From NCBI RefSeq assembly GCF_014284235.1, contig NZ_JACOGD010000001.1:558001-622000 (forward strand): a DNA stretch of 64,000 nt, in the 5' to 3' direction. Every line of letters begins with the position of its first letter. The first letter of the stretch is position 1. Below the pieces are notes generated by a model that searched no databases, was not told the origin of the DNA, and saw nothing but the letters and a program-made list of their open reading frames with translations. Both the position numbers and the translations under genes were made by a program. Origin of the DNA: Cognatundibacterium curvum (GTDB lineage: Bacteria > Pseudomonadota > Gammaproteobacteria > Burkholderiales > Burkholderiaceae_D). Shown one piece after another: positions 16,885-64,000 of the stretch.

Positions 16885-16887
16885 AAT

Positions 16888-18217: not shown

Positions 18218-18226
18218 TGTGAATTA

Positions 18227-18526: not shown

Positions 18527-18542
18527 AAGTCCTTGATTTTAT

Positions 18543-18592
<50 letters not shown>

Positions 18593-18742: not shown

Positions 18743-18761
18743 TTCGAACCTCCGACCCCAT
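18743..18761. repeat. att-like direct repeat, copy 2 (just upstream of the integrase start)
   Basis: Exact 19-bp repeat of the tRNA T-arm/variable-loop segment, 13 bp before the integrase ATG. It carries no further tRNA sequence. It may be a leftover attachment core from a second integration event or part of the integrase's own att region. Confidence 0.7.
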
Positions 18762-18774
18762 ATATAAATTTTCA

Positions 18775-38395: not shown

Positions 38396-38835
38396 TGACT
38401 GCTCCCCGGATAACCGTCATTCCCGCGTGCTTCTGGCGGGAATCCAGTTTGTTCACCTTGCGCAGCACTAGCTTTAGCTTGCGTGCTTTGCACGTGGTGT
38501 TGTGCTGGATTCCCGCCTTCGCGGGAATGACGAATCTTTTGAATTTGTCCAGTAATTTCAAACCATAAGTCATCCCAATCTGGATTACGTTCTTCTATCA
38601 GTCGCAACTTCCACTCACGATTCCATTTTTTGAGCGCTTTTTCACGGGTGATTGCACTCTCCATAGTCTCGTGTTGTTCGTACCAGACTAAGGTCTTCAC
38701 AGCATATTGTTGTGTGAAGCCCTCCCCCCCCCCTTCACGATGTTGCCAAATGCGTTGTATTAAATCGGAGGTCACACCAATATACAAGGTGCCGTTGCGT
38801 TCGCTGGCGAGAATGTAGACTGCGGGGGCTTTCAT
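38392..38835 (-). CDS. GIY-YIG nuclease, small YhbQ/UPF0213-like, with repeat-derived tail
   Basis: A 147-residue protein. The GIY-YIG core is clear (VYILASERNGTLYIGVTSD at 6-24, then RIWQHR, VWYEQHETMESAITREKALK). Ten consecutive Gs on the coding strand (38724-38733) encode the Gly-Gly-Gly of HREGGGEGF, a homopolymer prone to slippage. The last ~46 residues (RHSREGGNPAQHH...) are translated from a 116-bp palindromic repeat, so the natural end of the nuclease was probably near residue 100. A second copy of the repeat lies just upstream of the gene. It overlaps the DUF1016 gene by 4 nt. Confidence 0.8.
   Translation of the reverse strand: MKAPAVYILASERNGTLYIGVTSDLIQRIWQHREGGGEGFTQQYAVKTLVWYEQHETMESAITREKALKKWNREWKLRLIEERNPDWDDLWFEITGQIQKIRHSREGGNPAQHHVQSTQAKASAAQGEQTGFPPEARGNDGYPGSSQ
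38416..38531. repeat. 116-bp dRS3-like repeat unit, copy A
   Basis: Bounded by two palindromes of the ATTCCC-N-GGGAAT type (the right one is ATTCCCGCCTTCGCGGGAAT, a 20-bp fit to the Neisseria dRS3 consensus) around a ~70-bp core. Copy B at 38856-38971 is the same length and orientation and differs at about three positions. Copy A is read through as the C-terminus of the GIY-YIG protein. Confidence 0.85.
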
Positions 38836-38855
38836 ACTTTACCTCCGGCACTGGT

Positions 38856-38971
38856 GTCATTCCCGCGTCCTTCTGGCGGGAATCCAGTTTGTTCACCTTG
38901 CGCAGCACTGGCTTTAGCTTGCGTGCTTTGCACGTGGTGTTGTGCTGGATTCCCGCCTTCGCGGGAACGAC
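38856..38971. repeat. 116-bp dRS3-like repeat unit, copy B
   Basis: Nearly identical direct repeat of 38416-38531, in the 166-bp gap between hsdM and the GIY-YIG gene. Together the copies bracket the GIY-YIG core like a cassette. Confidence 0.85.
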
Positions 38972-39001
38972 AGCCTATAGGTGTTGCGGCAACTAAATTA
39001 C

Positions 39002-41335
39002 TCATGAATGCACCTCTTGCAACAGCTTCATGATTTCTGCGCTCACGGCATCCAGATCAGCATCGATCTCTGCCAGGTCACGCGGTGGCAGGTATTGGTA
39101 GAAATGGCGGTTGAACGGAATTTCATAGCCGACGATGCCGATTTGCTGATCTTTATCGTCCTTCTTGCTGGCATCGATCCAGGCATCTGGTACGTGCGGT
39201 TGCACTTCTTTGTTGAAGTAGGCTTCGTTGACTTCGTTCACGCTGCGGCTTGGGTCGAGCGCGACGTTTTCAAAATCGCGCAAGTCACTATCGGCTTTGT
39301 ATTCTATGGTTTTGCCATCGACGTTAAACAAGCCGTAGATTGGGTCGGCTTTGGTTTTATGGATTTTTTTGATGACCGGCTGAGCCGCCGGGTTTTTCCA
39401 GCTGACGGCGGATTCGATGGCTTTTTTGTCTTTAGCATCCAGACTGATGCCTGCGGCTTTGGCTGCGCCAGCGATGGCATCATCATATTGATTCATATCG
39501 TCAAACTGCGCGCTGCCTATTTGCACCTGCAGCGCCAGCGCCTTGCGCATGGTGGCTTTGGTGCTGGTCCAGGTATCACGATTCAGCAAGTCCTTGATTT
39601 GCTTTTCTTTGAGATCAGCAAAATGGGTTTTGATATAGCGGCGGATCGCTTCTTCATGGCTGCTGAGGTCGCCGTAATGCGGGCAATCCGCTGCATCGCT
39701 CCACAGTGCGGCGGGCAGATGGGCGAATTCTGAGTAAGCCCATTGCATGACGCTGTTCAATGCGCCGGATTCAAAACGCAAAGCGGCGATACGCTCATCG
39801 CTGAACTGGTAAGACTGACGCAACGGACGTTCTATGGTGATGCGGCGGTAGCCGAATTCATGGGTTTTAAAGATTTTGGCGGCGAAGGTTTTTGCGGCTT
39901 CTGTCTTGGGATTAGCCGATTGGCGACCGCGATTGCTTTTGGCTTCGGTGGGTTTCTCCAGTTCGCGTGCGTCAACGACTTCAAAGCGACCAAAGCATTG
40001 CGTAATGGTGCGGATATCGTCTTCGCTCATCTCATTGCGCTTGCTACCCAAGGATTTGCGCATCTTGCCGCAGAGGTTGCTGCCATTGATAAGTTGTACC
40101 ACGCCTTTGCGTTCGGTCGCTTTTTTGTTCGACAAGATCCAGACATAGGTGGCGATGCCGGTGTTGTAGAACATGTCTGTCGGTAAGGCGACGATGGCTT
40201 CGAGTAAATCGGCTTCTAAAATATAGCGCCGGATTTCTGATTCACCGCTACCAGCGCCACCGGTAAATAAGGGCGAGCCATTAAGAATAATACCGATGCG
40301 GCCACCACCGTCTTTGCTGTCGCGCAGCTTGCTAATCAAATGCAGCAGGAATAACAGGGAGCCATCCGAAACACGTGGCAAACCAGCGCCAAAGCGGCCG
40401 TCATAGCCTTTTTCATTATGTTCTTTGACGATGTCGTCTTCGATTTTTTTCCAATCAACACCAAACGGTGGGTTGGAGAGCATGTAATCGAACGGCGTGG
40501 CATAGAGCTGATCGTTAGACAGCGTATTGCCCAGCTTGATGTTGCTAACCTCCTGGCCTTTGATCAACATGTCGGCTTTACAGATGGCGTAGCTTTCCGG
40601 GTTCAATTCCTGGCCATAGGCACGCATGACTGCATTGGGGTTGAGTTCGTGCACATACTCCATACCGGCAGACAAGAAACCGCCTGTCCCTGCGGTAGGA
40701 TCGTAGATGGTGCGGATAATGCCAGGCTTAGTCAGCGCCTCATCGTCTTCCATGAAGACTAATGATGTCGTCAGCCGGACGATGTCGCGTGGCGTAAAGT
40801 GCTCACCTGCTGTTTCATTGGAGCCCTCAGCAAAGCGCCGGATCAGTTCTTCAAAGACCAAACCCATATCGTGATTCGATACAGTTTTTGGGCTGAGATC
40901 AATGGTGCGTACTTTCTGCACGACTTTGTAGAGCAAATTAGCGTCATTCAATTGACCGATGAATTCGGCGAAATTGAAGTATTCAAAGATTTCACGCGCA
41001 TCTTTGGAGAAGCTTTGGATGTAGCTTTCAAGATTTGCCTTGATACCGCTCTCACCAAGCTTAGACAAATCCATTTTGGAGGTATTAAAGAAGCTCAATC
41101 CACCCGTCGAGCGCAAAATGAGTTTCTCTTGCGCCTCTTCAGGCAGATTCATCGCCTGCACTTTTTGGTGTTCAGCCAGTACCGCTTCCTTGCTCGCTTC
41201 CAGCACACACTCTAAACGGCGTAACAAACAGAACGGCAGGATGATGCGACCATATTGGCTTTGTTTAAAATCGCCACGCAGCAGATCAGCGATAGCCCAT
41301 GAGTCGGCGGCGAGGTTGTTTGGAGTTTGCGTCAT
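39002..41335 (-). CDS. hsdM: Type I restriction enzyme, DNA methyltransferase subunit HsdM
   Basis: A 777-residue N6-adenine methyltransferase. The N-terminal HsdM helical domain leads into the SAM-binding motif DPTAGTGGF (about 208-216) and the catalytic NPPFGVDW (about 285-292). The C-terminal part is longer than in short HsdM proteins and ends [12 protein letters not shown]. The ATG at 41335 ([13 protein letters not shown]) matches the family start; an open frame extends to 41386. First gene of the type I operon. With HsdS it protects host DNA, and with HsdR it restricts unmodified DNA. Confidence 0.93.
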
Positions 41336-41774
41336 GATGTACGAAGTTAAAAACTGTTGAAGCGGAAAGTGGAACACAAAGCGCAAGGGTTTATAGCCGA
41401 GTTACAGGCATCTGTTGTCGTCAAGCCCACTTTAAATCAGAGAAGAAGCAACTCAAGGCCACCCGGAGCCAGTTTGATTGGCAGATAGCATCTTGCGCCA
41501 GTTCTATAAATGACAGATGTTACATGATCAATAATATAAAACCTATAGCTGGCAAGCGGGTTTGCGCTAAATCAGCGGGATGCAGTGAGAAAAAATGGGC
41601 TAAAGGTACGCAAACTGTAATCAGGCATTTCCTTGCGCAGCGTCCATTATTAGCGAAGCCAGAACGCAACGTTGCACATCACACCACTTCATCACATAAC
41701 ATTTGAAGTTCGTTTTATTGTCTACATTTTAATATTATGGGAGAATGCCCGATTTCAAACTAAAAGGTTAAATA
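41336..41774. other. Divergent promoter region between hsdM and lemA
   Basis: About 440 bp without a gene, turning AT-rich towards the LemA gene. TTGTCT and TTAATATTAT around 41718-41738 could be a promoter, and AAAAGG precedes the LemA ATG. Confidence 0.4.
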
Positions 41775-51518: not shown

Positions 51519-52103
51519 TTATCGTAGAATTTTTTCTGGCCATCCATTTACAAACACTGAGCCATCCATCCGCAGACGAACTTCAAACACACGTTCAACG
51601 TTACCATCATTTTCGATTAGCGAGTCGTAACGCGCCGTCAAGTAATGGAATTGTTGATTCGTAGAGCCAGCCCAACGGCGACCACGTTCAGGTAAATTCG
51701 CTTCATACGGACCATCTACTAACACATCAGTATATTGAAGTAACTGGATACTCCCAGGCAACTGAAGTGCTTCAAGTTCACCTTTTGTATATCCGCTAAA
51801 TACCATCACCGACAGTCCCAGTGTCTGCGCACCTTGCGCGACCACAGCCAAACCTTGAGCTTGTAACATGGGCTCGCCACCGAGAAAAGTTACCCCCTCT
51901 AGATCATGCGTGCGATGCGCAGTTGCAAGCCAGTCGAGAACTGATGACGTCGAAACAAGCTCACGCTCGACCAATTGAAGATACACTGGGTTGCAGCAAC
52001 CACGGCAACGCTTGTTGCAACCTTGCACCCACAACACAGCTCTTCGTCCCGGCCCTTCGGCTTCTGTGCAAGGCAGACGAGATGCTAAGTTAAGCCAATG
52101 CAC
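51519..52103 (-). CDS. Small radical SAM activase-like protein (NrdG/PflA type)
   Basis: A 194-residue radical SAM protein. Cluster cysteines C29, C33 and C36 form CX3CX2C (GCNKRCRGCC), with an extra Cys37. GGEP follows at 75-78 (VTFLGGEPML), and the fold is the short barrel of anaerobic ribonucleotide reductase activases (NrdG). No glycyl-radical enzyme is encoded nearby. It is the last gene of the five-gene operon, 4 bp after the AAA+ gene. A role in activating an operon partner or modifying a nucleotide is inference. Confidence 0.83.
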   Translation of the reverse strand: MHWLNLASRLPCTEAEGPGRRAVLWVQGCNKRCRGCCNPVYLQLVERELVSTSSVLDWLATAHRTHDLEGVTFLGGEPMLQAQGLAVVAQGAQTLGLSVMVFSGYTKGELEALQLPGSIQLLQYTDVLVDGPYEANLPERGRRWAGSTNQQFHYLTARYDSLIENDGNVERVFEVRLRMDGSVFVNGWPEKILR

Positions 52104-52107
52104 AGCG

Positions 52108-53970
52108 TCACTCTAATTCAAGTAACAATTTGCTACCTGCGATACGAACCTCAATTATCTTGCCCCGAATTTGATTAGGAGCGGCCATATGTTCAAATAA
52201 AAAAGCGGCTAATGGATCAATCAGTTTGTTAGTGATTGCGTTAGGGACGCCGCGCCCGCCCGCTCCGCGATCCACGTCCTTAACTAGCAAGGTTAATATC
52301 TCACTCTCCTTAACTAATCTCAAATCCGAAATACCCCATTTATCCCTCAGCCCCTTACGCAGTGGCGCCAGCTTGGCGCGCGCGATGTCGATCAAGAAGC
52401 TATCATCACTCATAAAATTGAACGGGATAATGTTGGCCTCCCCTATTCTCCCCAACAATTCTGGACGTTTTAGCTCATGCACGAAGTGTTGCCGCACTTT
52501 TTGGATAAATTCGTTGCGTACATCTAGGCTCTCAGGCTTAACCTCAGCTGCGCCAATATTCGAGGTGAATACGATAACTGTATCTGAAAACATAACAGTT
52601 TCCCCTTTGCCATCCGTCAAGCGCCCGTCTTCAAGAATTTGTAGAAACTTGTCGAGAATACGAGGGTGCGCCTTCTCGATTTCATCGAATAGCAGTAATG
52701 AAAATGGTCTTTGCTTGACCGCATTGGTCAACTGCCCCCCTGCTTCATAACCAACGTATCCTGGCGGAGCACCCACCAATCTCTGGTCGGCATGCTCGTG
52801 GTTAAACTCTGACATGTCGAAGCGAAGACAGGCTTCTTCGTCGCCAAAGAGGAATTCAGCAATGGACTTTGCAAGTTCAGTTTTGCCGACGCCCGTAGGG
52901 CCGACAAAAAACAACACTCCCTTGGGAGTGCGTTGCCTGTACGAGTGTTGCAGTCCCGAAAGTCCCGTGAAGGCGCGCACGAGGATGCGCCGCACCGCTT
53001 CAATGGCTTCCCCTTGACCTTTGACGCGCCTTCCCAGGGTTTCGACAATGGTCTGGAGTTTTTTGTGATCCAGTTGCTCCCAAGGACTGTGTCTGCGGCC
53101 GTGGCGATACAGATTGAGCAAAGACAAGGCACTTGAGACTTCAGTCTCCTGTCGTGAAAGTCGTGCAAGATTGTGAATGTCGCGGATACTCTGGCCTTCC
53201 AAGCCATCAACGAAGTCAGCCAACTCACGTCCTCCTTGCTGCAAAGGGGGCTGCAGCCGAAACACCTCTTTCAAGCCCAGTACAGCAGACTCGCGAACCT
53301 GCCTTATCGGCAAGGGGATTGCTATTTCTCTAAATAGTGGATTGTTCAAGTAGAGCGATGGTGGCAACACATTCAAGCCCCCACATAGCAACACCAGTAG
53401 TGATTGTGGTTGACCAATGCTTTCAGCATTGCGAACCACAGCGGCATCACGGGTAGCCTGTCCCAAACGCATCAGCCATCCGCGCTCGTTCTCACTCAAG
53501 GAGTTGACGCTACCAAACAAATATTGCGTCCAGTCCAAGACAAATGCGACTGGCTTTTCGGCACGTGGTTGTCTCAGCGATTGCGCAGCAAAAGCCAGCA
53601 AGTCATCCGCGCTTGCCGAAATGCAGCTATATGCGGGGCTCGGCACCGATGTAGGCGGTAATTCACCCATGTCATAGGCGCTCCCCTCGGACGCGCTTTC
53701 TCTAACTGCATGCGGCATAACTGAGCTTTGCAATTCCCGCCAAGTCCTCTCATCAACGCCACTAACGCCATTGACGCGGTTCCAGAAAATCACGTGCTGG
53801 TACCCGCGCTGACGCAGCAGGTTAATCAACGCGGCAGGCAATGCTGTCCATTGCCCTGGCGCTTCGGGATCTGATGTCAAATCACCAGTATTACCGTGCA
53901 AAATCACACCGCGCCGTATGCCGCATTCGCGGTGAAAATCTTCTTGCCAAGTCAACAAAGCTGAACTCAT
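52108..53970 (-). CDS. ClpB/Hsp104-D2-like AAA+ ATPase with degenerate N-terminal AAA module
   Basis: A 620-residue protein. The C-terminal half is a ClpB-type second AAA+ ring: Walker A GPTGVGKTE (about 357-365), the pore-loop region GAPPGYVGYEAGG, Walker B LLLFDEIEKAH (about 424-434), sensor 1 VFTSNIGA and RPELLGRIG as arginine-finger region, then a small D2 domain. The N-terminal ~270 residues look like a second AAA fold that has lost its P-loop (RRGVILHGNTGDL) and Walker B acid (VAFVLDWTQYL). There is no Clp N-domain or middle domain. Overlaps the coiled-coil gene by 4 nt. It could remodel an operon partner rather than act as a general chaperone. Confidence 0.85.
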   Translation of the reverse strand: MSSALLTWQEDFHRECGIRRGVILHGNTGDLTSDPEAPGQWTALPAALINLLRQRGYQHVIFWNRVNGVSGVDERTWRELQSSVMPHAVRESASEGSAYDMGELPPTSVPSPAYSCISASADDLLAFAAQSLRQPRAEKPVAFVLDWTQYLFGSVNSLSENERGWLMRLGQATRDAAVVRNAESIGQPQSLLVLLCGGLNVLPPSLYLNNPLFREIAIPLPIRQVRESAVLGLKEVFRLQPPLQQGGRELADFVDGLEGQSIRDIHNLARLSRQETEVSSALSLLNLYRHGRRHSPWEQLDHKKLQTIVETLGRRVKGQGEAIEAVRRILVRAFTGLSGLQHSYRQRTPKGVLFFVGPTGVGKTELAKSIAEFLFGDEEACLRFDMSEFNHEHADQRLVGAPPGYVGYEAGGQLTNAVKQRPFSLLLFDEIEKAHPRILDKFLQILEDGRLTDGKGETVMFSDTVIVFTSNIGAAEVKPESLDVRNEFIQKVRQHFVHELKRPELLGRIGEANIIPFNFMSDDSFLIDIARAKLAPLRKGLRDKWGISDLRLVKESEILTLLVKDVDRGAGGRGVPNAITNKLIDPLAAFLFEHMAAPNQIRGKIIEVRIAGSKLLLELE

Positions 53971-55112
53971 TTGCTTCTCTCCTGTGTCACATTAGGGTAA
54001 GGGCGAGCATCCTGATCCTGGTCGTCGGGATTGACCCAAATCACGCGCTTGTCGCTCAGACTGATGCCGTAAGCATCTTGTAGTGTAGCCATAACGGGTG
54101 CGACATCTTTCTCGCAAGTTTTGCCCTTGTATTGATGAAACTTGTAGCTGAGATGGCCGCTCAAGTTGATGCGAAAATCTGCCTGTGCGCCAGCAGGTCG
54201 ACGGGCGCGAATCAGTACCTCATCTTGCCCTTGTGATGTGAGATGCTCTGGCCTATCCACAACAAAGCCAGCTTGTTGCAGTGACTGATAAATCGCCCGC
54301 ACGACTTCGCGGCGTTGGCTTTCGTCCACGGCAACTTCATCTTGTTCTTGCACCAGTTGACTCAAGGCTTCAGCCTGCTCTGCAGGAGCGAGTCCTATTG
54401 CATGGGCCAATGCCTCGCGCAACTTGGCAGCGCGTTCGCCACCACCATTATTCGCTTCCTGTTCCAACTGCTCTCTTTGCAGCGTCAGTACATCGGCCAC
54501 GGCTTCGCGCTGCACAAGATTTTTCATTTCCTGCAGCTGGCGTTCAGCATCCATTTCATACCGCTGCCGAACTTCGCGCATGACAGCTGAAATCTGCGCC
54601 GAAGTCATGTTATTGGCTGCATTACCAAGCAGTCGCTCCCGTAGTTGCTGCAATTCGGCAAACGCGGCGTTGAGTGCGACAGGTGTGCTCCAGCAGATCA
54701 AACCTTCGCGCCATGCTGCCTCAAGTTCTGCCCGCAGCTGCAACTGTCGTTCGGCCTCAGCTTGCTGCGCTTTGCCGAATGCCTCAGTTGCGGCTAGCTC
54801 AGCATCTTGACGGTAACGGCGCTGCTCACGCGCAAATCGTGGTAATCCGTGAAATCGTCCACCTATGGAACGGCTCATATCTCTGGCAGCAAACGGGTCG
54901 GAGTCCATCAAAGTCTCCATGCGGTCAAGAGCGATACTCAACTCACGAAACTCTTCCGCAACTACGGCATCTAGCCTTTGACTGATGACATCATTCAATA
55001 CCCTGCGGTAGCGCTCAAGGAAGGGACGCGTTGTCTCGCGCACACGCTGTCGATCAAGCTCTTGTTTGCGTTGCCGTTGAATTTGGTAGCGATATTCGTC
55101 TGCACGACTCAT
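53967..55112 (-). CDS. Coiled-coil protein of the helicase-PIN operon, unknown family
   Basis: A 381-residue protein dominated by charged, Gln-rich helices: an N-terminal coiled coil (RYQIQRQRKQELDRQRVRE), a second long coiled coil around 85-235, and a small globular C-terminus of about 110 residues (SQGQDEVLIRARRPAGAQAD, LSGHLSYKFHQYKG). No catalytic motif is seen. The ATG at 55112 follows AAAGGAAATG; the extension to 55199 is inside the upstream gene. It sits between the PIN gene (4-bp gap) and the AAA+ gene (4-nt overlap), suggesting a structural subunit or substrate for the ATPase. Confidence 0.65.
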   Translation of the reverse strand: MSRADEYRYQIQRQRKQELDRQRVRETTRPFLERYRRVLNDVISQRLDAVVAEEFRELSIALDRMETLMDSDPFAARDMSRSIGGRFHGLPRFAREQRRYRQDAELAATEAFGKAQQAEAERQLQLRAELEAAWREGLICWSTPVALNAAFAELQQLRERLLGNAANNMTSAQISAVMREVRQRYEMDAERQLQEMKNLVQREAVADVLTLQREQLEQEANNGGGERAAKLREALAHAIGLAPAEQAEALSQLVQEQDEVAVDESQRREVVRAIYQSLQQAGFVVDRPEHLTSQGQDEVLIRARRPAGAQADFRINLSGHLSYKFHQYKGKTCEKDVAPVMATLQDAYGISLSDKRVIWVNPDDQDQDARPYPNVTQERSK

Positions 55113-55116
55113 GGTT

Positions 55117-57519
55117 TCATTTCCTTTGTTTTTTTCTTTTATCTTGCTTCCGTGGATGTATTCCTGGCGTAGCAGCGGGCACAAGGCGTGAAGGCGCATA
55201 TGACTTGGAATCTTGTGTGTTCAGGCCAAGCGACTGCGCTTTGTTTCGTAGATTGATGTCATTACTAACAAACAAAACCTCGTTCAGACGGAAAAACAAC
55301 GCCGTTGAAAGGATGGCATGATCGGGGTGCTTGACATCCCACTCTGAAGGCAGTAAGGCCGTGTATTCTGTTTCATGTCGGATGCGGGACGAGGTTGCAT
55401 CCAACTGACGAATAGCAGCACGCGCCTTGGCAGAGCGAGCCTGATCTACACTGGTCTTCAACCCATCCAACTCACTCAGAACCCGATGCGGCACGATCGG
55501 AATATCGTTGGAGCGTAGCTCCTGCAAAAGCTCAGGATGTTCCATCAGAGCGCTGGTATCGAACACGACAACGCGGTGTCTAATTTCGACTGGGGCCAGC
55601 TTCTCCTGCGCTAGAAGATTCCAGCTTTCGACTGCTTCATTCAACACATACCAGAGGGGAGATGATGTATTTAGAGCATGAAAATGCTCCGCAGCGTTGC
55701 GCCAAGTGCGCACGGCATCCAAGGCATGAGGGGTCAAGGTGCGCACATCCATTTGGCTATTATCCGCTGCTTTCAACGCCTGCTCGCCAATACTCCGGTA
55801 AACATCCTGGACGGCTTTCTCAATATCTTGCAACGGCTGCTGTATAGCGTGTGGGCCATACAGCTTCAACTCTTTTCGCTCTAATGCGTGTTCCAGCCAC
55901 ACTTGCCGCAATTCGACGGAAAGCAATTCTTCTGGAATTTCAGTGGTGGAAGGCAAGGCAGATCGCAGCTTTTCCAATGATTCCAAGGTGCGAATGGGAG
56001 CCGCATGACGCAGCAGCGAGGCCTGCAACGGCACAGCCTTGTCCGCAGACAACACCTGAGCTATCTGAATCAAAAGAGAAACGACTTCCTCAGGTCCAAG
56101 CTGATTGGGCGTATGTTTCAACGACTCATCAATAGCTCTCACCAGAGATCGTTCCCAAGCAGATTTCCAGTCTTTTCTATCTGGCCGCCACAAACCAATT
56201 GCTTGTGTAGCGGGTTCGATCACCGCCATCAGATCGCCCAGCGGCTGTTCAGCACGCGTGGCAAGCCACGGCCACACCGTTTCACCGAGTGCATCGACAT
56301 CTCGCCATGCTACGGACATGAAGGCAATGCGTGGGTCATCGGAGTGCTCGCAAGCGCCCTCTAAATCTCTCCGCAGCTTGGCCCAAAGCGCGGTTGCAGA
56401 CTGGTCGTTCAAAGTCACCACCAAGCCACACAAGCGCGGTTGTCCCGCCCAATAGAGGCGGAGGTTACCGGCCACTTCTGCTTGAGCACTCGCTCCGCCA
56501 ACCTGCGGTAGAGACAAGCTACGAAATCCAGTCATCATTCCTGCAGGGGGGGGCATAAGCAGCGTGAACACGGTCGGTTGTTTGCTATTGGCAATCAGTT
56601 CCGGTGCACTCACTTCAGATGAGAAAACGATGGTGGGTATTGCCGCATCCGCAACCACAACGCCTTGCGCAATGATGCATAACCGCGCTCTGGCTACGCC
56701 CCCATTAGTTGCTGCAATGGAGCGGACAGTGCGTGCATCTCGTAAAACAGAAGAGTCAATGACTGGCAGCAAAGCATTCGGCTCGCTTGTTAGTGCATCA
56801 GCAAGCAGAAGTTCCCATGCCAGTTCGGATTGTGCTTGCGCCAACCAGCGCTGCAATGCTGCATCGCGCGGGGCATTCACATTCAGCACGCCGTCCTCGC
56901 TACATGAGATTTCGAGTCGGCGCTCTACCCATCCCGCTGCATGCACTACGGGCACGATGCGATCTATAACTGTCGCAGGATTTTTCCAGTCATAAGTTTC
57001 CTGCGCTATGGCACGTTCAACCTGGGGCAACGGATTTTGCGGTCTCAAAGATATGTCGGCGTCGCTGATGCGACTCATGCTGCCTTGGCTCTGCAGCCCA
57101 CCATCCTTCTTGGCCGGTTTGATCTCATCGCCGATAGGGTCATAGTGATGACTGACTTTGATCGTGCGCGAGCGCACCGGCAGGCTATCGGTGCGCAAGA
57201 ATTGCAAGCCATCAGCAGTCAATTCAAGCTCAGTTAGAGGTACCTCAAGCGTATCCAGAGCGTTACGCTTGGGTAGAGCACCCAAAGCGGAAAGTTCAGA
57301 TACGCAGCCGTCCAAAAGTTCACGCACATCGCATGCGCCAAGTTGATCGCGGAAAACACCCAGCAAAGACAAGTTCTGTTTGTCAGATAAATGAAGGCCA
57401 GGATCACACAGTCGCAACACCATCCGTTCGAATACCGTGGGCTTGCGCTCGGTGTGATAGGTCACATCGGATTCAATGCGATACAAGGGTAAGGGAACGA
57501 AAATTTCTGCCAGCTTCAT
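55117..57519 (-). CDS. Large protein with C-terminal PIN-domain ribonuclease
   Basis: An 800-residue protein. Residues about 646-775 form a PIN domain related to the PhoH-associated type: VVVFDTSALMEHPELL with the first Asp, VLSELDGLK with the Glu, HPDHAILSTAL with a third acid, and VSNDINLRNKA with the fourth. All four acidic positions look present, so RNase activity is expected. The first 640 residues are unclassified, with alternating beta and helical parts. A run of eight Cs on the coding strand (plus-strand Gs 56546-56553) encodes MPPPAGMM. ATG 57519 overlaps the helicase stop by 4 nt. Confidence 0.78.
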   Translation of the reverse strand: MKLAEIFVPLPLYRIESDVTYHTERKPTVFERMVLRLCDPGLHLSDKQNLSLLGVFRDQLGACDVRELLDGCVSELSALGALPKRNALDTLEVPLTELELTADGLQFLRTDSLPVRSRTIKVSHHYDPIGDEIKPAKKDGGLQSQGSMSRISDADISLRPQNPLPQVERAIAQETYDWKNPATVIDRIVPVVHAAGWVERRLEISCSEDGVLNVNAPRDAALQRWLAQAQSELAWELLLADALTSEPNALLPVIDSSVLRDARTVRSIAATNGGVARARLCIIAQGVVVADAAIPTIVFSSEVSAPELIANSKQPTVFTLLMPPPAGMMTGFRSLSLPQVGGASAQAEVAGNLRLYWAGQPRLCGLVVTLNDQSATALWAKLRRDLEGACEHSDDPRIAFMSVAWRDVDALGETVWPWLATRAEQPLGDLMAVIEPATQAIGLWRPDRKDWKSAWERSLVRAIDESLKHTPNQLGPEEVVSLLIQIAQVLSADKAVPLQASLLRHAAPIRTLESLEKLRSALPSTTEIPEELLSVELRQVWLEHALERKELKLYGPHAIQQPLQDIEKAVQDVYRSIGEQALKAADNSQMDVRTLTPHALDAVRTWRNAAEHFHALNTSSPLWYVLNEAVESWNLLAQEKLAPVEIRHRVVVFDTSALMEHPELLQELRSNDIPIVPHRVLSELDGLKTSVDQARSAKARAAIRQLDATSSRIRHETEYTALLPSEWDVKHPDHAILSTALFFRLNEVLFVSNDINLRNKAQSLGLNTQDSKSYAPSRLVPAATPGIHPRKQDKRKKQRK

Positions 57520-60500
57520 GCGCGGCCTCCCCATTTACCGTACTTGTCGCCCTTGGGCGCAACCGTCCGATTGGGTGGAACATTGAACCTGCCGCTCTGC
57601 TGTTGTGGCTGCTGGGGTAGCATGTCGGGTGACATCAACTGCCTTGCCGTAACCAGCTGTGCATCGCGCTCCAGTTGATCTAGGATAAATTTGTAAACGG
57701 TTTGCTTTTCGCTACCTGCGCTGGCCATTCGAGGCAAATCCACCTCATAGGATGCATACATGCTTTTCGCGCCGAAGACGATCAGCAGTGCCTGCGCGCG
57801 AGAAAAGGCCACATTAATAAATTCGAAACGGGCGACATTGGCTTTGCTGGAACGACGCCGGGGCTGATTGCCCGAACGTAAAGGGTCGTATCCATCGTGT
57901 CGCACCATACTGACCAGCACGATCCACTTCTGCTTTCCCTGATAGCGGATCACTGTATTGACTTCAACATCCAGACAATCAAAACGGCCGTTGGACTCTT
58001 TGGGCCTGCGGCGGCGGATGGCAGCACGAATTTCTCGGCATTGGTTGGCATAAAAAGACACCACTCCGACTTTACATTTATTTGTCCGCGAGTAGCCCAG
58101 TGCAGCGGATTGGCGTTCAATTTGCTCCAGCGTTTCCGCAATCAACTCCGCTTCCAGGCGATTGGTGCGCCGAGGTTGGTTGCCGTCCATATCTTCACGG
58201 TGAATCTGGTTGTGCAGGTTGTAGGTTGTGTCCACCCACAACACATGGTCGCCCGGAGTAAGCAGAGGCGAGCCACCGTCCACGTTCTCTAATCTCAATC
58301 CGTGAACTCGACGAAGCTTAGGTTCTCGGTCATCGTCAGGCGCAAGGAGGCCGCATTCCAACTCGTCTTCGTAAAAATAGTTCACTATCTTCATAATTTG
58401 CGGGTGCATGCGGAATTGCACATTGAGTCGCGCGCGGATGGCGTCATCCGCCATCTCGAAATGTGACTTGAATAACGAGGCTGTGACCATCTTCTCAAAG
58501 CGGCGCAAGTTGTCGCGGGTCAGCAAGGTTTGCGCTTCTGCAAGATTGCCTGTGCTGTTTTCCTCTGCGTTGGCAGCTTCGTTTTCTTCTGCTTCATCCA
58601 TGAAGCTACGTGCTTCGTCGCCTTCCTGAAATAGCGGCGGCAACTGCCGGTGGTCGCCCACCAGCACGGCGCGGCGCGCGCGCATCAAGGGCATCAGTAA
58701 TTCCAGCGGCGTAGCCTTGCTTACTTCATCAATGATAGCGACATCAAAACTCGTCTGGCCGACATCGTCAAGCGTGCGCTCATTTTCGTTGCAGGTAATG
58801 GCAACTACATTGCAGCTCGCCAGAAAATCCGAGCGCAAATTCTGCCAGTCTTCTTCTCCGGCGTTGTTGCGGCTCAAATCGCGCATCCACTCTTCTAGTA
58901 GCGCCGCCCATGTCTGGCGTTCATGTTGTTGACTGGCCTGGCGTTGCTCCACGGCCTTGATGACTTGGACAACGGTTTCGAAGCGCTGCGATAAAGTCGC
59001 GGCAGGTTCTATCGGCAAGCGGTTGCCTTGCGTGATAGCCTCATCCTGCAACAGAGCGTTAACCTTATGCTGATGCTGTCTGCGCTGCTCGTACCAGTTA
59101 TCCAGCTGGCTTTGCGCGCTACACTCCCGGTTCCTCGCGTCTCGCACAAGGCCATCATTTGGGGCTTGAGGCGCGGGCTGCAACAATTGAGTCTGCATGG
59201 ATTGCTTCAGGATTTCGATGGCCTGTTCGATAACCGGCTGCGCCGTCTCCAACATATTCAGGCTGGCTGCAATTTCGTCACCCAGTTGAGTCGCATTTTC
59301 AATGGAAGCGCACCATTTGGTCGCTTGATGAAACAGGCCGTCATAGCGGCTGCGCTCCAAGCCCACACCAGCCTGCTCCAACTCTTTGAGTTCCTTGCGT
59401 CTGGCTCTCCATGCATCCACGAAAGCGTCGTCCTTCTCCATCTGCTCTTCCAGGGTTTGGACTTCGTTTCGGAGCGATTCGATGCGTAGCCGGATGCTTG
59501 CATCCTGAATGGGGCTGTCCGCAGCTTCACGCAGGCGACGAATATCCGCAGCAATGGCTTCTCGCACATTCGTGAAACGCCGCCACGCGGCCAGCATGTA
59601 CGCCAGCATTTCGCCCCGACTGCCTGCATGAGCCAGCCAATCGTCCATAGAAAATTTCACAAGCAATCCTGCCGCCTCGCAGGAGGCAAGGCCTTGCGCC
59701 AAATTTCTGGTAGGCAGTTCCACTTCCCGCAAGTCGCCATACAGCGTTTCGGCTTCGCCATAAAGGAAGGCCTGAACGCTCTGCAGGCGCAGGCGTTTGG
59801 CCTTGTCTTCATCCACCATCGCGCACGCAGTGTAATACGCCTGCTGCGCCTGCGCTGTCTGGCTGCGGGCCGATGCCAAGTCCATTTCAAGTTGCCCTCG
59901 TCTGGCGTTCAACTCCTTCTCGTCGTGCAACACAAAAGCAGCGCGGCCATGCCATTCCAACAGGAGGCGCAAGTCTTCGTCACCGCGCTTCCACACTGCG
60001 AGGCGCTCTTCGGTTTGTGCTGCCAAGGCTTTGTAGTAACGCTGCAAGGAGGCCGGCCCCGCGAAGGCAGCGCCATCTTCCGTCACTTTGCGTTCACTCC
60101 GTGCTAACCGCACTACGCGCAAAGAACCGTCATAGCTCAGGCTGTCCAGCGCGTTGTCCACGGCGGTATGCGCCTGCGATGCCAGCAACACCCGCTGTCC
60201 GCGCCGCGCCAGTTGGACGATGGCCTCAGCAATTACCGTGGTCTTGCCCGTGCCCGGCGGTCCTTGAACCAAGCACAAATCAGGCGCAGAAAGAATCTTG
60301 ACCACGGCTTCTTTCTGAGCCGTGTTGAGCTTGTCGTTGGCCCACTGCGCCACCGTCTCTAGACGATGCGGCACGGAAACCTGTGCAGACTCGAACAAAT
60401 AATCATTCAGATACGGCGCGAAACCACCCTGTTCCTGCAACTGCCGCAGTGATTGTTGATGGCGTTTTATCAGACTCATATCGCCTGCCGTTGAAATGGA

Positions 60501-61475
60501 TAGAAAGCCGGACTCCGGAATTTGGTTTAGAATGCGTTCGCGCAAGGTATCTGGCTCCTCGGCATTGGCAAGATCATTCGCATCGTCTTCAGTCAATGAG
60601 ACAGTCAAATCGGCAAGCGCAGGCGTAGGCCAAGGACATTCAGACAGGTTTTCGTCTTTGGGCAATTTCCGATTTTTCGCTAAAGATGCCGACTCAAGGA
60701 GTTTGCCCGCCTGCCCCAACCGAGGAAGGCGACGCTCCTCCCTTTCAGGCAAACCAAAGACCCACGGATCTTTGGACTGCCCGACCTGAAACACCACCAG
60801 ATCATCCCGTCCCAAGGCCTTACGATCCTTTTGCAAAGTCTGTGCGCTCTGTGCTATCAATGAAAAAACCAACTGCTCGTCACGCCATTCGCGACTGATG
60901 TAGCGTAAACCGCGCGCCTTGTGACGGATAAGGCTTTCTTTCCATTGAAGAAATTCAGTCCACTCGGTCAACTGCTTTTCGGTTTGCTGCGTAATTGGCG
61001 GCAAGTCAACCAGTAACTGCGGTGTGAGCAGATTATTGACACGCTGAATACGCTGCTGACCCAGCGCGGATTTCAAGCTGTCATGCACAGCAAATGCAAT
61101 AAATTCACGCTCGAAAGAACGCGCTGGCAGGTCGGCGGTCTCGACGAAACCGTTGATCAGAAAAAGTGGAGAAGAGGATTCAGTAGGCCAACTTCCCGTC
61201 GCGATGAAGGTACACCCTTCACGAAAGGGCCAATCTCGCCCACCGCCGCTAACTCGAATTGCCATCTGGGCGTATCGTGGATTCTGCTTGTCTCTCTGTC
61301 GATTAGAAACATAGCCACTGATGGGCATATTATTTGGGAAAAGCAACTCATACAAAACTAAAGCCCCATCACGACCATTGCAAAACGCTCTGAATGCCCT
61401 ATGGCGGCGCTGGATCTCGGTAATAGCTTGTTTCATTACTCGACTATCCAAGTCAAGAGCAACATATAAATTCAT
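57516..61475 (-). CDS. UPF1/Dna2-like SF1 helicase with a long coiled-coil insertion
   Basis: A 1319-residue SF1B helicase. Walker A GPPGTGKTT lies near 403 and motif Ia ASQAHTAVDNAL follows. Walker B is VAIIDEVSKATP near 910, motif III VGDHRQLPPLF near 935, motif IV-V FRMHPQIMKIVNYFY and VNTVIRYQGKQKWIVLVS, and motif VI FINVAFSRAQALL. Between motifs Ia and II about 450 residues of coiled coil (roughly 450-880) are inserted. The first ~370 residues are an unclassified N-terminal module, and the C-terminus is Gln/Pro-rich and basic. First gene of the five-gene operon. UPF1-like helicases translocate on RNA or ssDNA, and pairing with a PIN nuclease suggests joint action on nucleic acid. Confidence 0.88.
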   Translation of the reverse strand: MNLYVALDLDSRVMKQAITEIQRRHRAFRAFCNGRDGALVLYELLFPNNMPISGYVSNRQRDKQNPRYAQMAIRVSGGGRDWPFREGCTFIATGSWPTESSSPLFLINGFVETADLPARSFEREFIAFAVHDSLKSALGQQRIQRVNNLLTPQLLVDLPPITQQTEKQLTEWTEFLQWKESLIRHKARGLRYISREWRDEQLVFSLIAQSAQTLQKDRKALGRDDLVVFQVGQSKDPWVFGLPEREERRLPRLGQAGKLLESASLAKNRKLPKDENLSECPWPTPALADLTVSLTEDDANDLANAEEPDTLRERILNQIPESGFLSISTAGDMSLIKRHQQSLRQLQEQGGFAPYLNDYLFESAQVSVPHRLETVAQWANDKLNTAQKEAVVKILSAPDLCLVQGPPGTGKTTVIAEAIVQLARRGQRVLLASQAHTAVDNALDSLSYDGSLRVVRLARSERKVTEDGAAFAGPASLQRYYKALAAQTEERLAVWKRGDEDLRLLLEWHGRAAFVLHDEKELNARRGQLEMDLASARSQTAQAQQAYYTACAMVDEDKAKRLRLQSVQAFLYGEAETLYGDLREVELPTRNLAQGLASCEAAGLLVKFSMDDWLAHAGSRGEMLAYMLAAWRRFTNVREAIAADIRRLREAADSPIQDASIRLRIESLRNEVQTLEEQMEKDDAFVDAWRARRKELKELEQAGVGLERSRYDGLFHQATKWCASIENATQLGDEIAASLNMLETAQPVIEQAIEILKQSMQTQLLQPAPQAPNDGLVRDARNRECSAQSQLDNWYEQRRQHQHKVNALLQDEAITQGNRLPIEPAATLSQRFETVVQVIKAVEQRQASQQHERQTWAALLEEWMRDLSRNNAGEEDWQNLRSDFLASCNVVAITCNENERTLDDVGQTSFDVAIIDEVSKATPLELLMPLMRARRAVLVGDHRQLPPLFQEGDEARSFMDEAEENEAANAEENSTGNLAEAQTLLTRDNLRRFEKMVTASLFKSHFEMADDAIRARLNVQFRMHPQIMKIVNYFYEDELECGLLAPDDDREPKLRRVHGLRLENVDGGSPLLTPGDHVLWVDTTYNLHNQIHREDMDGNQPRRTNRLEAELIAETLEQIERQSAALGYSRTNKCKVGVVSFYANQCREIRAAIRRRRPKESNGRFDCLDVEVNTVIRYQGKQKWIVLVSMVRHDGYDPLRSGNQPRRRSSKANVARFEFINVAFSRAQALLIVFGAKSMYASYEVDLPRMASAGSEKQTVYKFILDQLERDAQLVTARQLMSPDMLPQQPQQQSGRFNVPPNRTVAPKGDKYGKWGGRA

Positions 61476-61609: not shown

Positions 61610-62617
61610 TCAACTTAAATCAATAGAGCCGAAGTAACTTCGGTAAGTTTTTTTTATCTGGTCGCGAACAGTTACACTCAGCTCGTCTGGCGAAAGTAAT
61701 TTAATATTGCTGCCACATGAAAGAATCCAGCGTAGAAGCTGTCCACTGGAGGGTATTGTCACTGTTAGTAATGAGCCGTCTTCCCCTTCCTGCATTGGGA
61801 TAAGTTTCTGACTATCATTCAATGGACAGTCGTAAAGCAAGGTCTCCACATAGCCACTGACGACCGCCTTCAGTTCAATCATTTCTCCATCAGAAAAATC
61901 TGCCTTTCCCCTGGCAATGTAATCAGCAAAGCAGAAACTGCCGGTTTTTTTATCAGAAGTGCCTAGCAGCTCTACCTTTAAAATTCTGTCGACTGCGTAA
62001 AGCCTCTCGCTACCACCATCATCTTTCAATGCAACAAGATAAATTCTAGGGCCGCGTTGCATAATGCCCAGCGGATGCAACGTCGGTTCACTGACATTTT
62101 CCTGGCGGTCTTTGTACCTGATACGTACTGACAATCTCTCTTTGAGTGCTTTCAGTACCGATGAAAAAATACGGTAATCAATCACTGCTGGCTTTAAACG
62201 CAAGCTATCTGGAAGGATGCAGATTTTTTTCTCATCCAACGCAATGCCATCATCTGGTTTTTTGAGCCTGGTAATCAGCTTTGCCAAATCTGTATTCGAA
62301 ACAATGCCTTCGAGCTCAACCTTTAAGTGTTCGATAAAATATTCCCAAACAGGACCGTCAATCTCATCATCCTGTGCGACCTGAACATAAGTTGGTGAAT
62401 TTTCACTCTTATGATGTAGTGCAACTCTTCCTGCAGAAATGAGGTCTTTTAAATCTCGTTGGATAGTACGTGCGGTAAGTATCAAATCCGGGTTGGAATT
62501 CGCTAATTTCTCAATGATTTGCTTACTCGAAAACCCAACGGACGCTCCTTGATCAGCGGTTGGAAGCAAACTTTCAATTAACTTCAGGCGTTCAACCCTG
62601 TCATACGAGAGAGACAT
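61610..62617 (-). CDS. WYL-domain transcriptional regulator
   Basis: A 335-residue protein. An N-terminal winged helix (VERLKLIESLLP, TARTIQRDLKDLISAGRV; about 7-75) is followed by a WYL domain (about 150-240; SVRIRYKDRQ, PLGIMQRGPRIYLVAL) and a C-terminal WCX-like extension. WYL regulators commonly control defence operons by sensing a nucleic-acid or nucleotide signal. It lies 134 bp upstream of the helicase-PIN operon on the same strand and probably regulates it; the 134-bp gap would hold the operon promoter. Confidence 0.87.
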   Translation of the reverse strand: MSLSYDRVERLKLIESLLPTADQGASVGFSSKQIIEKLANSNPDLILTARTIQRDLKDLISAGRVALHHKSENSPTYVQVAQDDEIDGPVWEYFIEHLKVELEGIVSNTDLAKLITRLKKPDDGIALDEKKICILPDSLRLKPAVIDYRIFSSVLKALKERLSVRIRYKDRQENVSEPTLHPLGIMQRGPRIYLVALKDDGGSERLYAVDRILKVELLGTSDKKTGSFCFADYIARGKADFSDGEMIELKAVVSGYVETLLYDCPLNDSQKLIPMQEGEDGSLLTVTIPSSGQLLRWILSCGSNIKLLSPDELSVTVRDQIKKTYRSYFGSIDLS

Positions 62618-62682: not shown

Positions 62683-64000
62683 TTAATGTGCACACATTTC
62701 TTGCACTAACAGGTCTGAGGCTCGTTGGGTCAATACAATCGACACGGACAATGTGCCCCTAGTCATACCAACGAACAACTTTGCACGTTCAGCTTTTGAC
62801 AGCTCTGCAAAATCAACCTCTGTCAGGATGATGGCTGCAGCGGACTGCCCCTTGAAGCGAAAAACAGATTCCAGCAACAAAAGGCCTTTACTCCACTTAG
62901 CCTGACCATCCTCAGAGAAGTCTCCAGTGAAGCGTTTTGTGCTATAGCTAGCAAGATTTTCCTGCCGAAGCACTTTAGATTGCTGCATTCCTTTTACAGT
63001 CAGTACCGCGATATCGGTGACGTCTATGCCCTGCTTCAGACAATCCTGAATTGCACCTTCTGTTTTTTTAATCAAATCATGTTCCCCGCCGTCATAGATA
63101 TAGAACTGAGGAATATCACCATGCCATGGACTTTTTGATTTAATACTCTTGGATGTAAGTCCAAAAGCATTTATCGCCTGGCAAATCATCTGCGGGCTAC
63201 GGAAGTTGTCCATACACTCGATACTGACAGTCTCAGATAATTCACATGATTTGCGTGCATAGAGGCATTGGTCGGCATCTTCAAGGAGATAAAGTCGGCC
63301 ATCAGGGCGCAGAAAATTGAGAAGATGATTAATCCACTCCGGCTGAAGATCTTGAGCCTCATCAAGAATCAGTAGATCTACCAGCTCTTGGTCCAAGGGT
63401 GCACAATTGAGAAAATGCTGAGTCGCCTTGCTAAAAATATCGACATCCCGGAAATCAATGATTTGACCACCCTGGCGATAGCGATCTATACACATCGTAT
63501 GAAAGGTCGTGCATTGCCCGGGAGCGATCCGACACATATGCTCTGCCAATGGCCGATTGAAACAAACATAGAGTGAACGTAGGCCCGATCCGGCGACCTC
63601 GTTTAGCAAGGACAGTGCAAGCTGTGTTTTACCAGATCCAGCCGTCGCTTGAATACGATAGCGTTGAGTCGGTGCTTTAATCCGTGGCACCCAGGTGGCA
63701 AGTCCATCTGAAAGGCCTCGGATAGTTTGCAGAAGCTGCCCCTGTATTGTCGCGACATCCGGCACCAAATCCAAATGATTGCTCAAAAACGCTTTGACAT
63801 TGGAGGCATTTTTGTCCTTTGTGCCAGGCGGAAGTAATTTGATGATTCGGGCAGGCAAATTAGGGAAATCGACGCTATCAAAAATGCGCTCCCTTGGCAG
63901 GCCAACGATCGCCGATTCCGTTACGCGGAAATCTGGTAACACTAAACATGTCTGCACATGTACATTAAGATTTTCTTTACTCAGCAACTGTCGCATCGCG
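62683..64000 (-). CDS. NERD-UvrD-like SF1 helicase (5' end beyond the window)
   Basis: At least 437 residues. The first visible stretch (LLSKENLNVHVQTCLVLPDF) resembles the second half of a NERD nuclease-related domain, so the true start probably lies beyond 64000, although an ATG exists at 63996. Helicase motifs follow: Walker A ATAGSGKTQLAL (about 116-127), Walker B LLILDEAQDLQPEW (about 207-220), DNFRSPQ (motif III-IV area), and motif VI AKLFVGMTRG near the end. It is 65 bp upstream of the WYL gene on the same strand and may belong to the same defence locus. Confidence 0.78.
   Translation of the reverse strand, partial: AMRQLLSKENLNVHVQTCLVLPDFRVTESAIVGLPRERIFDSVDFPNLPARIIKLLPPGTKDKNASNVKAFLSNHLDLVPDVATIQGQLLQTIRGLSDGLATWVPRIKAPTQRYRIQATAGSGKTQLALSLLNEVAGSGLRSLYVCFNRPLAEHMCRIAPGQCTTFHTMCIDRYRQGGQIIDFRDVDIFSKATQHFLNCAPLDQELVDLLILDEAQDLQPEWINHLLNFLRPDGRLYLLEDADQCLYARKSCELSETVSIECMDNFRSPQMICQAINAFGLTSKSIKSKSPWHGDIPQFYIYDGGEHDLIKKTEGAIQDCLKQGIDVTDIAVLTVKGMQQSKVLRQENLASYSTKRFTGDFSEDGQAKWSKGLLLLESVFRFKGQSAAAIILTEVDFAELSKAERAKLFVGMTRGTLSVSIVLTQRASDLLVQEMCAH

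Follow-up and report, generated by a model that had tools for sequence, protein, structure and literature searches.

Does a compact operon of five genes carried by Cognatundibacterium curvum belong to a known defence system, or to one that has so far gone unrecognised? The operon lies in a stretch of 64,000 nucleotides on contig NZ_JACOGD010000001.1 (positions 558,001 to 622,000), which we analysed as a whole and refer to as the window. It encodes, in gene order, a UPF1-like helicase, a protein with a PIN nuclease domain (gene 2), a coiled-coil protein, a tandem AAA+ ATPase and a small radical SAM protein. We find that it is probably an unrecognised virus-defence system. The helicase and gene 2 form a pair of the kind known from CoCoNuT (cnuHE) and Mokosh, in a separate lineage with a PIN effector.

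Results

A conserved five-gene operon

All five genes are intact on the minus strand (Table 1). If the PIN gene is taken to start at 57519 and the coiled-coil gene at 55112, as in relatives, the junctions in gene order are a 4-nucleotide overlap, a 4-base-pair gap, a 4-nucleotide overlap and a 4-base-pair gap. This confirms the arrangement of same-strand genes described in an initial annotation of the sequence. The names given there to the parts fit the Pfam and NCBIfam matches, among them AAA_11 and AAA_12 in the helicase (4.9e-37 and 2.5e-30), PIN_4 in the PIN protein (5.9e-23), AAA_2 in the ATPase (2.3e-49) and Fer4_12 in the radical SAM protein (2.4e-29). The coiled-coil protein matched no Pfam family.

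A scan of genome contigs, which used two peptide patterns from the AAA+ N-terminus only, gave 59 pattern matches, 27 of them with a relative. Together with the window, four plasmid loci and one locus from Leisingera, these make up 33 fetched loci (numbered with the prefix L). All five genes stand in one order in 27 of the 33, a count that includes L033 despite its broken helicase and AAA+ genes; the genes thus do co-occur elsewhere, the point on which the initial annotation had let its proposal depend. Close relatives group together at 80% AAA+ identity, so the raw count is inflated by near-copies: at that level the 33 loci form 17 groups and the 27 five-gene loci form 13. In five of the six exceptions a contig end truncates the set (L007, L017, L022 and L027 start within gene 2, and L032 stops within the AAA+ gene), and L030, from a metagenome-assembled genome (MAG) of Planctomycetaceae, is alone in truly lacking the canonical layout. 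Among the 27 scan loci the coiled-coil gene is present in 27, the radical SAM gene and gene 2 in 26 each and a UPF1-like helicase in 23; every missing gene is explained by a contig end, except gene 2 of L030. Two of the 23 helicases are non-canonical, that of L030 (another clade, another position) and that of L033. The latter locus, a Helicobacter suis contig, has its helicase in four pieces and its AAA+ gene in two, with the other three genes intact; CoCoNuT genes are described as similarly fragmented in Helicobacter (PMC11090510).

The locus titles name Pseudomonadota, Planctomycetes, Synergistales, Verrucomicrobia, Myxococcales, Helicobacter and a Lentisphaerae MAG. The helicase core of the last is 94% identical to that of the window, so horizontal transfer or mis-binning has to be allowed for. 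A tblastn search of 72,556 plasmid records with the PIN protein gave nine matches (six in Moellerella and one each in Polaromonas, Photobacterium and Acinetobacter), and the four records examined, one per genus, each show the five genes arranged as in the window. Identity to the window is 77-91% throughout in Moellerella. For the other three plasmids it is 54-58% in the AAA+ protein, 43-57% in the radical SAM protein, 36-40% in the helicase and 35-38% in the coiled-coil protein. The PIN protein has the lowest identity of the five (27% over its full length in Polaromonas; 22-23% in the first half and 32-38% in the PIN part in Photobacterium and Acinetobacter), which suggests that the nuclease-bearing protein evolves fastest. 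The Acinetobacter carrier (L005) is plasmid pNDM1_010055, to judge by its name an NDM-1 resistance plasmid.

The five-gene system is rare. The PIN protein was found in none of 35 same-genus genomes, and outside the window's own genome the sole match in that search was to the PIN region, at 7e-4. A megablast search of complete E. coli genomes gave no match, no phage record matched the AAA+ N-terminus, and a scan of viral contigs gave 53 pattern matches with no relative among them.

The helicase and its partner

The helicase carries the motifs GPPGTGKTT, DEVSK, GDHRQLPP, QFRMHP, VIRYQGK and NVAFSRA. Motif I is kept in 29 of 29 helicases, and most residues of motifs II to VI in 25-28 of the 29, with near-copies included and with one gap in nearly every alignment column for motifs II-VI. 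Motifs I (residue 404) and II (residue 913) lie about 500 residues apart with little conserved between them, a spacing that agrees with the length of the coiled-coil insert of about 450 residues that had been claimed.

A tree of 39 helicase cores places the 27 five-gene helicases in a single group (Shimodaira-Hasegawa-like approximate likelihood ratio test 98) apart from the CnuH-type and DUF4011-type helicases. The tree is a quick one in which long branches are flagged and CnuH labels were assigned from neighbour genes; it covers neither L062 and L063 (MkoA; motif II pattern not found) and L033 (broken), nor L007, L017, L022 and L027 (helicase off the contig). The PADLOC model that fits the window helicase best is that for Mokosh MkoA (1.5e-99, across its helicase part), and by blastp this helicase is about equally distant from MkoA and from CnuH-type helicases (27.5% over 396 residues against the MkoA-position helicase of L062). 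The idea that the helicase has no match to named systems was therefore mistaken, given the MkoA match and the cnuHE layout.

Gene 2 had been described as an 800-residue protein ending in a PIN domain. That domain is present in the window, but the protein starts with a winged-helix adaptor, and PIN is missing in two of 32 gene 2 proteins. The AlphaFold model (mean predicted local distance difference test score, pLDDT, 81; predicted template modelling score, pTM, 0.50) runs from an N-terminal strand-helix unit through a beta region and a helical region to the C-terminal PIN domain. For the N-terminus of gene 2, hhalign returned 3.1e-6 (probability 88) against six CnuE-position and two MkoB N-termini aligned together, while four unrelated control pairs gave 0.086 (coiled coil against CnuE), 0.54, 0.58 and 0.59. 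In Polaromonas this N-terminus matches MkoB residues 9-209 in PADLOC (1.4e-4). Taken together, the clade of its own, the winged-helix match and the equal distance to MkoA and CnuH place the pair in a separate lineage of the cnuHE/Mokosh kind.

The best relative of the PIN domain by sequence in the PDB is human SMG6/EST1A (1.5e-10). A fold search ranked Thermus TTHA0540 first and SMG6 next; lower matches were yeast Nmd4 (also as complexed with Upf1), exosome Rrp44-type chains, archaeal PIN proteins and SMG5, interspersed with two chains of mitoribosome assembly from trypanosomes. Each acidic position is kept in 29-31 of the 32 rows of the alignment; two rows (L027, from Thermogutta, and L031, from Synergistales) hold proteins that retain the N-terminal part and have no PIN domain. 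A Pfam scan found no phospholipase D (PLD) domain in gene 2.

The ATPase and the radical SAM protein

The second domain of the AAA+ protein is of the ClpB/ClpC D2 type (2.6e-78 to ClpC/ClpB D2 in a PDB profile search), with Walker A, Walker B and a GYVG pore loop intact. Walker A and the DE of Walker B are invariant in all 32 rows that cover them; the sensor-2 and arginine-finger regions differ in a few rows. The first domain is degenerate, with no lysine at the presumed Walker A and D-W instead of D-E (32 of 33), and has only weak PDB matches, around the lid, to paraplegin and VCP-like chains.

The radical SAM protein has CxxxCxxC, a further cysteine and GGEP in all 32 aligned members. Its nearest solved relative is pyruvate formate-lyase (PFL) activase (3.8e-18). 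The best NCBIfam model is NrdG (TIGR02491; 8.6e-25), with 87.5 bits against a cut-off of 126.1, so 'NrdG-type', the label it had been given at the outset, holds and NrdG does not; the Pfam scan of the five proteins found no NrdD in the operon. At E<=0.01 the only PADLOC models that match it are those of viperin (best 3.8e-7). We rejected an assignment as viperin: the match is weak and confined to the radical-SAM core that such enzymes share (residues 27-103).

The coiled-coil protein and its tail

The AlphaFold model of the coiled-coil protein (mean pLDDT 81, pTM 0.44) predicts helices over residues 3-280 and a tail (289-348) that forms a beta-beta-beta-beta-alpha domain. A fold search with the model gave no PDB match at E<=0.001. 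In the tail Gly330, Cys333 and Asp336 are invariant in 23 of 23 members, and its shape is suggestive of DUF2997. The DUF2997 proteins of two related clusters (L078 and L079) share G-x-x-C. A profile comparison of the tail with DUF2997 scored 19.5, the best of 100 column-shuffled decoys reaching 15.1.

We also searched 3,618 sequences, the open reading frames (ORFs) of the loci plus the two added DUF2997 proteins, with a hidden Markov model of the coiled-coil C-terminus. The top outside match was an ORF of Geminocystis (L056; 3.7e-6). Next came the DUF2997 protein of L078 (E 1), small ORFs in L066 and L003 and an ORF of L058, and later the Rhizobium genes of L068 and L067 (cut at the locus ends) and the DUF2997 protein of L079 (E 4.2), all matches after L056 being individually insignificant. 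A DUF2997 search found the domain in one of 299 genomes, at locus L078. We tentatively regard the tail as DUF2997-like, a distant relation being suggested by its motif, by its predicted fold and by the rank of the matches. A coiled-coil gene downstream in Rhizobium was rejected as a homologue (hhalign 0.22, not significant).

The accessory set beside other helicases

The accessory set is portable, and its AAA+ and radical SAM genes recur beside UPF1-like helicases of other clades. In L030 the coiled-coil, AAA+ and radical SAM genes, with a vWA gene in front of the first, are followed by a gene for 189 amino acids (aa), a kinase gene, a CnuH-clade helicase and an MkoB-like gene; this kinase gene gave a match to a portion of PADLOC's MkoA model. 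On Rhizobium and Caballeronia plasmids, AAA+ and radical SAM genes precede a UPF1-like helicase of 1824 to 2101 aa (four examined of eight records). The variant helicases on Rhizobium, Caballeronia and Aristaeella plasmids measure about 1800 to 2150 aa and are of DUF4011 type in the two that were scanned; that of L073 has kinase, DUF4011 and REase_MTES domains. L067 has shortened frames, with a radical SAM protein of 126 aa and a helicase of 1824 aa. In Aristaeella a DUF4011 helicase, kinases, FHA and phosphatase genes surround radical SAM and AAA+. An annotated WYL gene (L072:1558-2550) lies upstream of this Aristaeella cluster; it shares 21% identity with the WYL protein of the window (pairwise E 0.009).

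The AAA genes of two further clusters we take to be 'Ycf46-like'. One of them (L078; G162:C46:1-9213) holds AAA (two ORFs), a UPF1-like helicase, a 473-aa gene, two coiled-coil genes, an NrdG-type radical SAM gene and DUF2997. The other, AAA-DUF1257-DUF2997-radical SAM in Paenibacillus (L079), was found through a plasmid search with the L078 radical SAM protein. Like the window operon, both place an AAA ATPase and an NrdG-type radical SAM protein together, here next to DUF2997, and L078 adds the helicase and coiled coils; unlike it, the AAA of L078 is PF00004/AAA_lid_3 and not AAA_2, its DUF2997 is a free small protein, and no PIN match was found there. In Geminocystis (L056 and L071) the AAA+ and radical SAM genes are about 9 kb apart, the ORF that matches the coiled-coil C-terminal profile is directly upstream of AAA+, and an annotated anti-phage dCTP deaminase is in the neighbourhood.

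Four plasmid loci (L057, L058, L060 and L061) carry clusters of vWA, phosphatase, kinase, UPF1-like helicase and a next gene, followed in three by DUF2357 (McrC-type); these are probably CoCoNuT systems.

Genomic context

The operon probably rides in a tRNA-Pro island of about 53 kb, as judged from a tRNA-Pro repeat, an integrase-like ORF beside it and the intact tRNA-Pro beyond the window (Table 1). A regular expression for the catalytic motif found nothing in the integrase ORF. Near the right end of the island a relaxase-like ORF recognised by eye (L083:9344-10270) suggests a mobilisable element. Two copies of a 2.9-kb repeat are 99.6% identical and carry two genes that by eye resemble ABC transporters; they lie at 15352-18262 of the window, just outside the island, and at G000:C11:622835-625745, within it.

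The WYL gene directly upstream had been pointed out as the kind of regulator that often controls such sets; it is not conserved with the operon. No relative was found among the ORFs of 50 other loci at E<=1e-3, or by tblastn at E<=0.01, and the GC content shifts at the operon edge: it is 0.50-0.55 in the operon genes, 0.43 in the WYL gene and 0.35-0.40 in the downstream genes, the immediate neighbours overall spanning 0.35-0.47. We therefore left it out of the unit. The UvrD-like helicase gene beyond it likewise does not belong to the unit; its product matches PADLOC RTasNERD-Hel (1e-10) and has a NERD-like N-terminus by eye.

We scanned 118 of 144 listed flank proteins from other loci, with PADLOC at 1e-15. 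Altogether 109 PADLOC models were matched; the 25 listed include, with a single protein for each, BrxC, BrxL, Csm3, Cas6, CARF-HEPN, DrmD, JukA, PrimPol and type I specificity. BREX, type III CRISPR, DISARM, CARF and type I restriction-modification are represented in this way. The Pfam family met most often among the flank proteins is Radical_SAM (seven of 118). A second, larger radical SAM gene, belonging to one of several families, stands near the operon in 11 of the 33 loci, at 48220-49476 in the window and within about 3.2 kb of the operon in L004, L005, L007, L009-L014 and L021. Eight of these 11 loci, with the window, fall into one near-copy group by AAA+. The second gene is accompanied by glycosyltransferase, PHP, JmjC, LRR or nucleotide-kinase genes. 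In L021 (a Methylococcaceae MAG), distant homologues of the glycosyltransferase and variant radical SAM genes at 48220-50496 of the window (2e-24 and 3e-30) sit at 13023-15726, shortly downstream of the five-gene operon. Could these second genes be swappable modification cassettes?

Table 1. Positions of the operon genes, of the domains of gene 2 and of neighbouring features, in window coordinates except where a contig or locus is named.
Feature	Position	Strand	Details and basis
UPF1-like superfamily 1B helicase	57516..61475	-	1319 aa; Pfam, PADLOC, motifs, tree
PIN protein (gene 2)	ORF 55117..57534	-	805 aa; conserved start 57519 gives the 800-aa form
Winged-helix adaptor	N-terminal ~135 aa of gene 2	-	profile match, AlphaFold2 model
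SMG6/PIN_4-type PIN domain	about residues 649-775 of the 800-aa form	-	Pfam, PDB profile, fold
Coiled-coil protein	ORF 53967..55199	-	conserved start 55112 gives 381 aa
Tandem AAA+ ATPase	52108..53970	-	620 aa
Small NrdG/PFL-activase-type radical SAM protein	51519..52103	-	194 aa
WYL-domain regulator	61610..62617	-	directly upstream of the operon; Pfam
UvrD-like helicase gene	62683..63996, past the window edge	-	543 aa in full (L083:2683-4314)
Presumed att site, left island end	18489..18593	.	105-bp direct copy (104/105) including the 3' part of tRNA-Pro
Intact tRNA-Pro	G000:C11:629577-629653		beyond the window
Tyrosine-recombinase-like integrase	18673..20172	+	by eye; beside the att copy
Probable type I restriction-modification cluster	32450..41386	-	same island; by eye; presumably HsdR 32450-35719, HsdS 36075-37379, YhcG-like 37376-38395, HsdM 39002-41386

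Discussion

Clustering of a helicase, a nuclease and an ATPase invites comparison with named systems. In CoCoNuT, as described by Bell et al. (2024), the cnuHE genes encode a UPF1-like helicase with a coiled-coil insertion after Walker A and then an elongated winged-helix protein fused to a nuclease; the account also describes coiled-coil partners, a hexameric AAA-type NTPase and, in extended type III-A, a tandem AAA+ protein in which only the C-terminal domain is active (PMC11090510). The operon resembles type II/III cnuHE in that the helicase gene is followed by a winged helix with a nuclease, here PIN. It differs in having no McrB/McrC (CnuB/CnuC), TerY-P or HEPN/PLD/Vsr effector (the Pfam scan gave no McrB or DUF2357 match in the operon), in its PIN effector, ClpB-D2-type AAA+ and radical SAM proteins, and in the separate clade of its helicases. 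Neither 'PIN' nor 'radical SAM' occurs as a whole word in that paper.

With Mokosh type I the operon shares an MkoA-homologous helicase and, in Polaromonas, a gene 2 N-terminus that matches MkoB. MkoA carries a Ser/Thr kinase domain, and the operon lacks both this and a PLD nuclease and has three further conserved genes; no kinase match was found in the five proteins by Pfam, with 25 of 26 families listed for the helicase. The PLD nuclease of Mokosh type I is tabulated in PMC10952713, and a further account of Mokosh is given in PMC11291487. With their defining parts absent, membership of Mokosh or CoCoNuT was rejected and kinship retained. The expectation that no named system would cover the set stood: no PADLOC 2.0.0 system does, since no model matches the PIN or the coiled-coil protein of the window at E<=0.01. 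Nor did full-text searches of an open-licence library bring up a description of helicase, PIN, AAA+ and radical SAM as one set.

Conflict systems offer a looser parallel. In vWA-MoxR ternary systems SF1 helicases are described as typically accompanied by PIN effectors, and a radical SAM protein has been proposed as the modifier of a peptide effector (Kaur et al. 2020, PMC7159879). The ATPase and layout of the operon differ from these, and it has no vWA match; a vWA gene stands beside the L030 variant.

The reading that we favour, to which we give an even chance, is that of a horizontally moving, RNA-degrading defence system of cnuHE/Mokosh-like kind that is gated by a radical-SAM/AAA+ module. 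Mobility is probable, given the plasmid carriers and the tRNA-Pro island. The UPF1-like helicase would load on invader RNA or aberrant transcripts and recruit the winged-helix protein, whose SMG6-like PIN domain would cut RNA. The triad of coiled-coil, AAA+ and radical SAM proteins may gate this pair, in place of McrBC in CoCoNuT or of the kinase/TerY-P of relatives. The neighbourhood and the residue invariance suggest that the radical SAM protein could modify the DUF2997-like coiled-coil tail at the invariant Gly/Cys. An AAA+ hexamer, with a dead first domain and a working ClpB-type second, might then pull or remodel the coiled-coil protein, which would release the helicase-nuclease pair or switch it off. 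The targeting of RNA or single-stranded DNA in the initial proposal is reasonable given the parts; the antiviral role put forward with it, RNA as the target and the direction of gating are what we infer, and the radical-SAM substrate is conjecture.

Several observations weigh against this reading. The coiled-coil family was found in one of 398 sampled phylum genomes, the window's own (at most five candidates scored per genome). The PIN-less loci L027 and L031 imply that another effector or mode must exist there. The winged helix is a common fold, and a profile match by itself is no proof of kinship; against MkoB alone the gene 2 N-terminus gave an hhalign value of 0.0012 (probability 19), and against two other helicase partners 0.019. 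The link of the tail to DUF2997 (PF11211) meets the most objections: only two of 23 members matched at E<=1 (best 0.014, under the curated cut-off); rival families, Erp_C (0.004) and Methyltransf_34 (0.0085), beat it; in L030 SBB_T7 (0.0031) and NarE (0.066) precede DUF2997 (0.075); the window and L027 tails matched no Pfam family; and the hhalign probability of the profile comparison is 6%. No UPF1-like helicase was seen near the accessory genes of L079 (by annotation) or of Geminocystis L056 and L071. The defence-gene matches in the flanks rest on no control set.

A bolder version of this reading would make the operon a radical-SAM-licensed prokaryotic counterpart of eukaryotic nonsense-mediated decay, with a UPF1-like helicase and an SMG6-type PIN nuclease, in which a radical modification of the DUF2997-like domain, centred for example on Gly/Cys, arms or disarms this RNA-degrading immune machine, the ClpB-type AAA+ protein remodels it, and AAA/DUF2997/radical-SAM serves as a portable control module of several UPF1-like systems. 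The likeness lies in a UPF1-family helicase paired with an SMG6-type PIN nuclease, as in the core UPF1-SMG6 and in yeast Upf1-Nmd4 (background in PMC11463774 and PMC5031192). It is one of analogy and distant homology only, and the bacterial partner has a winged helix; the Pfam scan of the five proteins found no UPF2/UPF3 or 14-3-3-like parts, no dedicated search having been made. We consider this version unlikely, and lowered our estimate of it a little in view of other Pfam families that match the tail no worse than DUF2997 does.

Three alternatives keep the same parts and assign them other work. The operon could be a stress or redox regulator in which the oxygen-sensitive radical SAM protein and the AAA+ protein tune mRNA decay during anaerobiosis or under stress unrelated to infection, with mobile elements carrying the set as a fitness or addiction cassette. 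The radical SAM protein is, after all, of the activase type of anaerobic ribonucleotide reductase (RNR) and PFL, and the Paenibacillus cluster has no annotated nuclease inside; the patchy spread (no PIN protein in same-genus genomes) with close copies across bacterial families, the mobile island and the defence-model matches in flanks make this quite unlikely. Equally hard to favour, and placed just behind it, is a DNA-directed version in which the helicase acts on single-stranded DNA, at replication forks or in plasmid or phage DNA that enters the cell, and PIN nicks DNA, for plasmid exclusion or as a DNA-damage sensor like Hachiman. UPF1-like helicases are described as acting on RNA or single-stranded DNA (PMC11090510), several carriers are plasmids, and Hachiman is described as a helicase-nuclease DNA sensor. 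Set against this, most of the named relatives of the PIN domain, whether found by sequence or by fold, take part in RNA decay (SMG6, Nmd4, exosome chains), TTHA0540 and AF0591 having no stated function.

Very doubtful is the third, in which the radical SAM protein leaves the coiled-coil protein unmodified and senses or sabotages nucleotide metabolism, for instance by recognising phage anaerobic RNR or by making a viperin-like antiviral nucleotide. Viperin supplies the only defence models that match it, and 1798 of 50,697 phage records match the L078 radical SAM protein at E<=1e-10, most of the 20 rows listed being annotated as activators of anaerobic RNR. The viperin match, however, is to the shared core, the closest models and structures are activases of glycyl-radical enzymes, and the radical SAM gene of five-gene loci stands after the AAA+ gene in every case, an order that fits a protein substrate. 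Mere chance clustering of unrelated genes, for which one might cite the want of any prior description of the set, is refuted by the same order under Pseudomonadota, Synergistales, Verrucomicrobia, Myxococcales and Helicobacter titles, among others, although a contig end truncates two of these loci.

What is new here is the AAA+/radical-SAM/coiled-coil unit and the PIN effector, the helicase/winged-helix-nuclease pair being of a kind already known. On the reading of an RNA-degrading defence system, a defence nuclease would be controlled by radical-SAM chemistry and an unfoldase, and the uncharacterised DUF2997 domain would gain a candidate role and become a candidate radical-SAM substrate. One bacterial operon joins both core activities of eukaryotic mRNA surveillance, a UPF1-type helicase and an SMG6-type PIN nuclease. 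It has been proposed that nonsense-mediated decay grew from a conflict system (PMC5031192); the operon makes that proposal directly testable.

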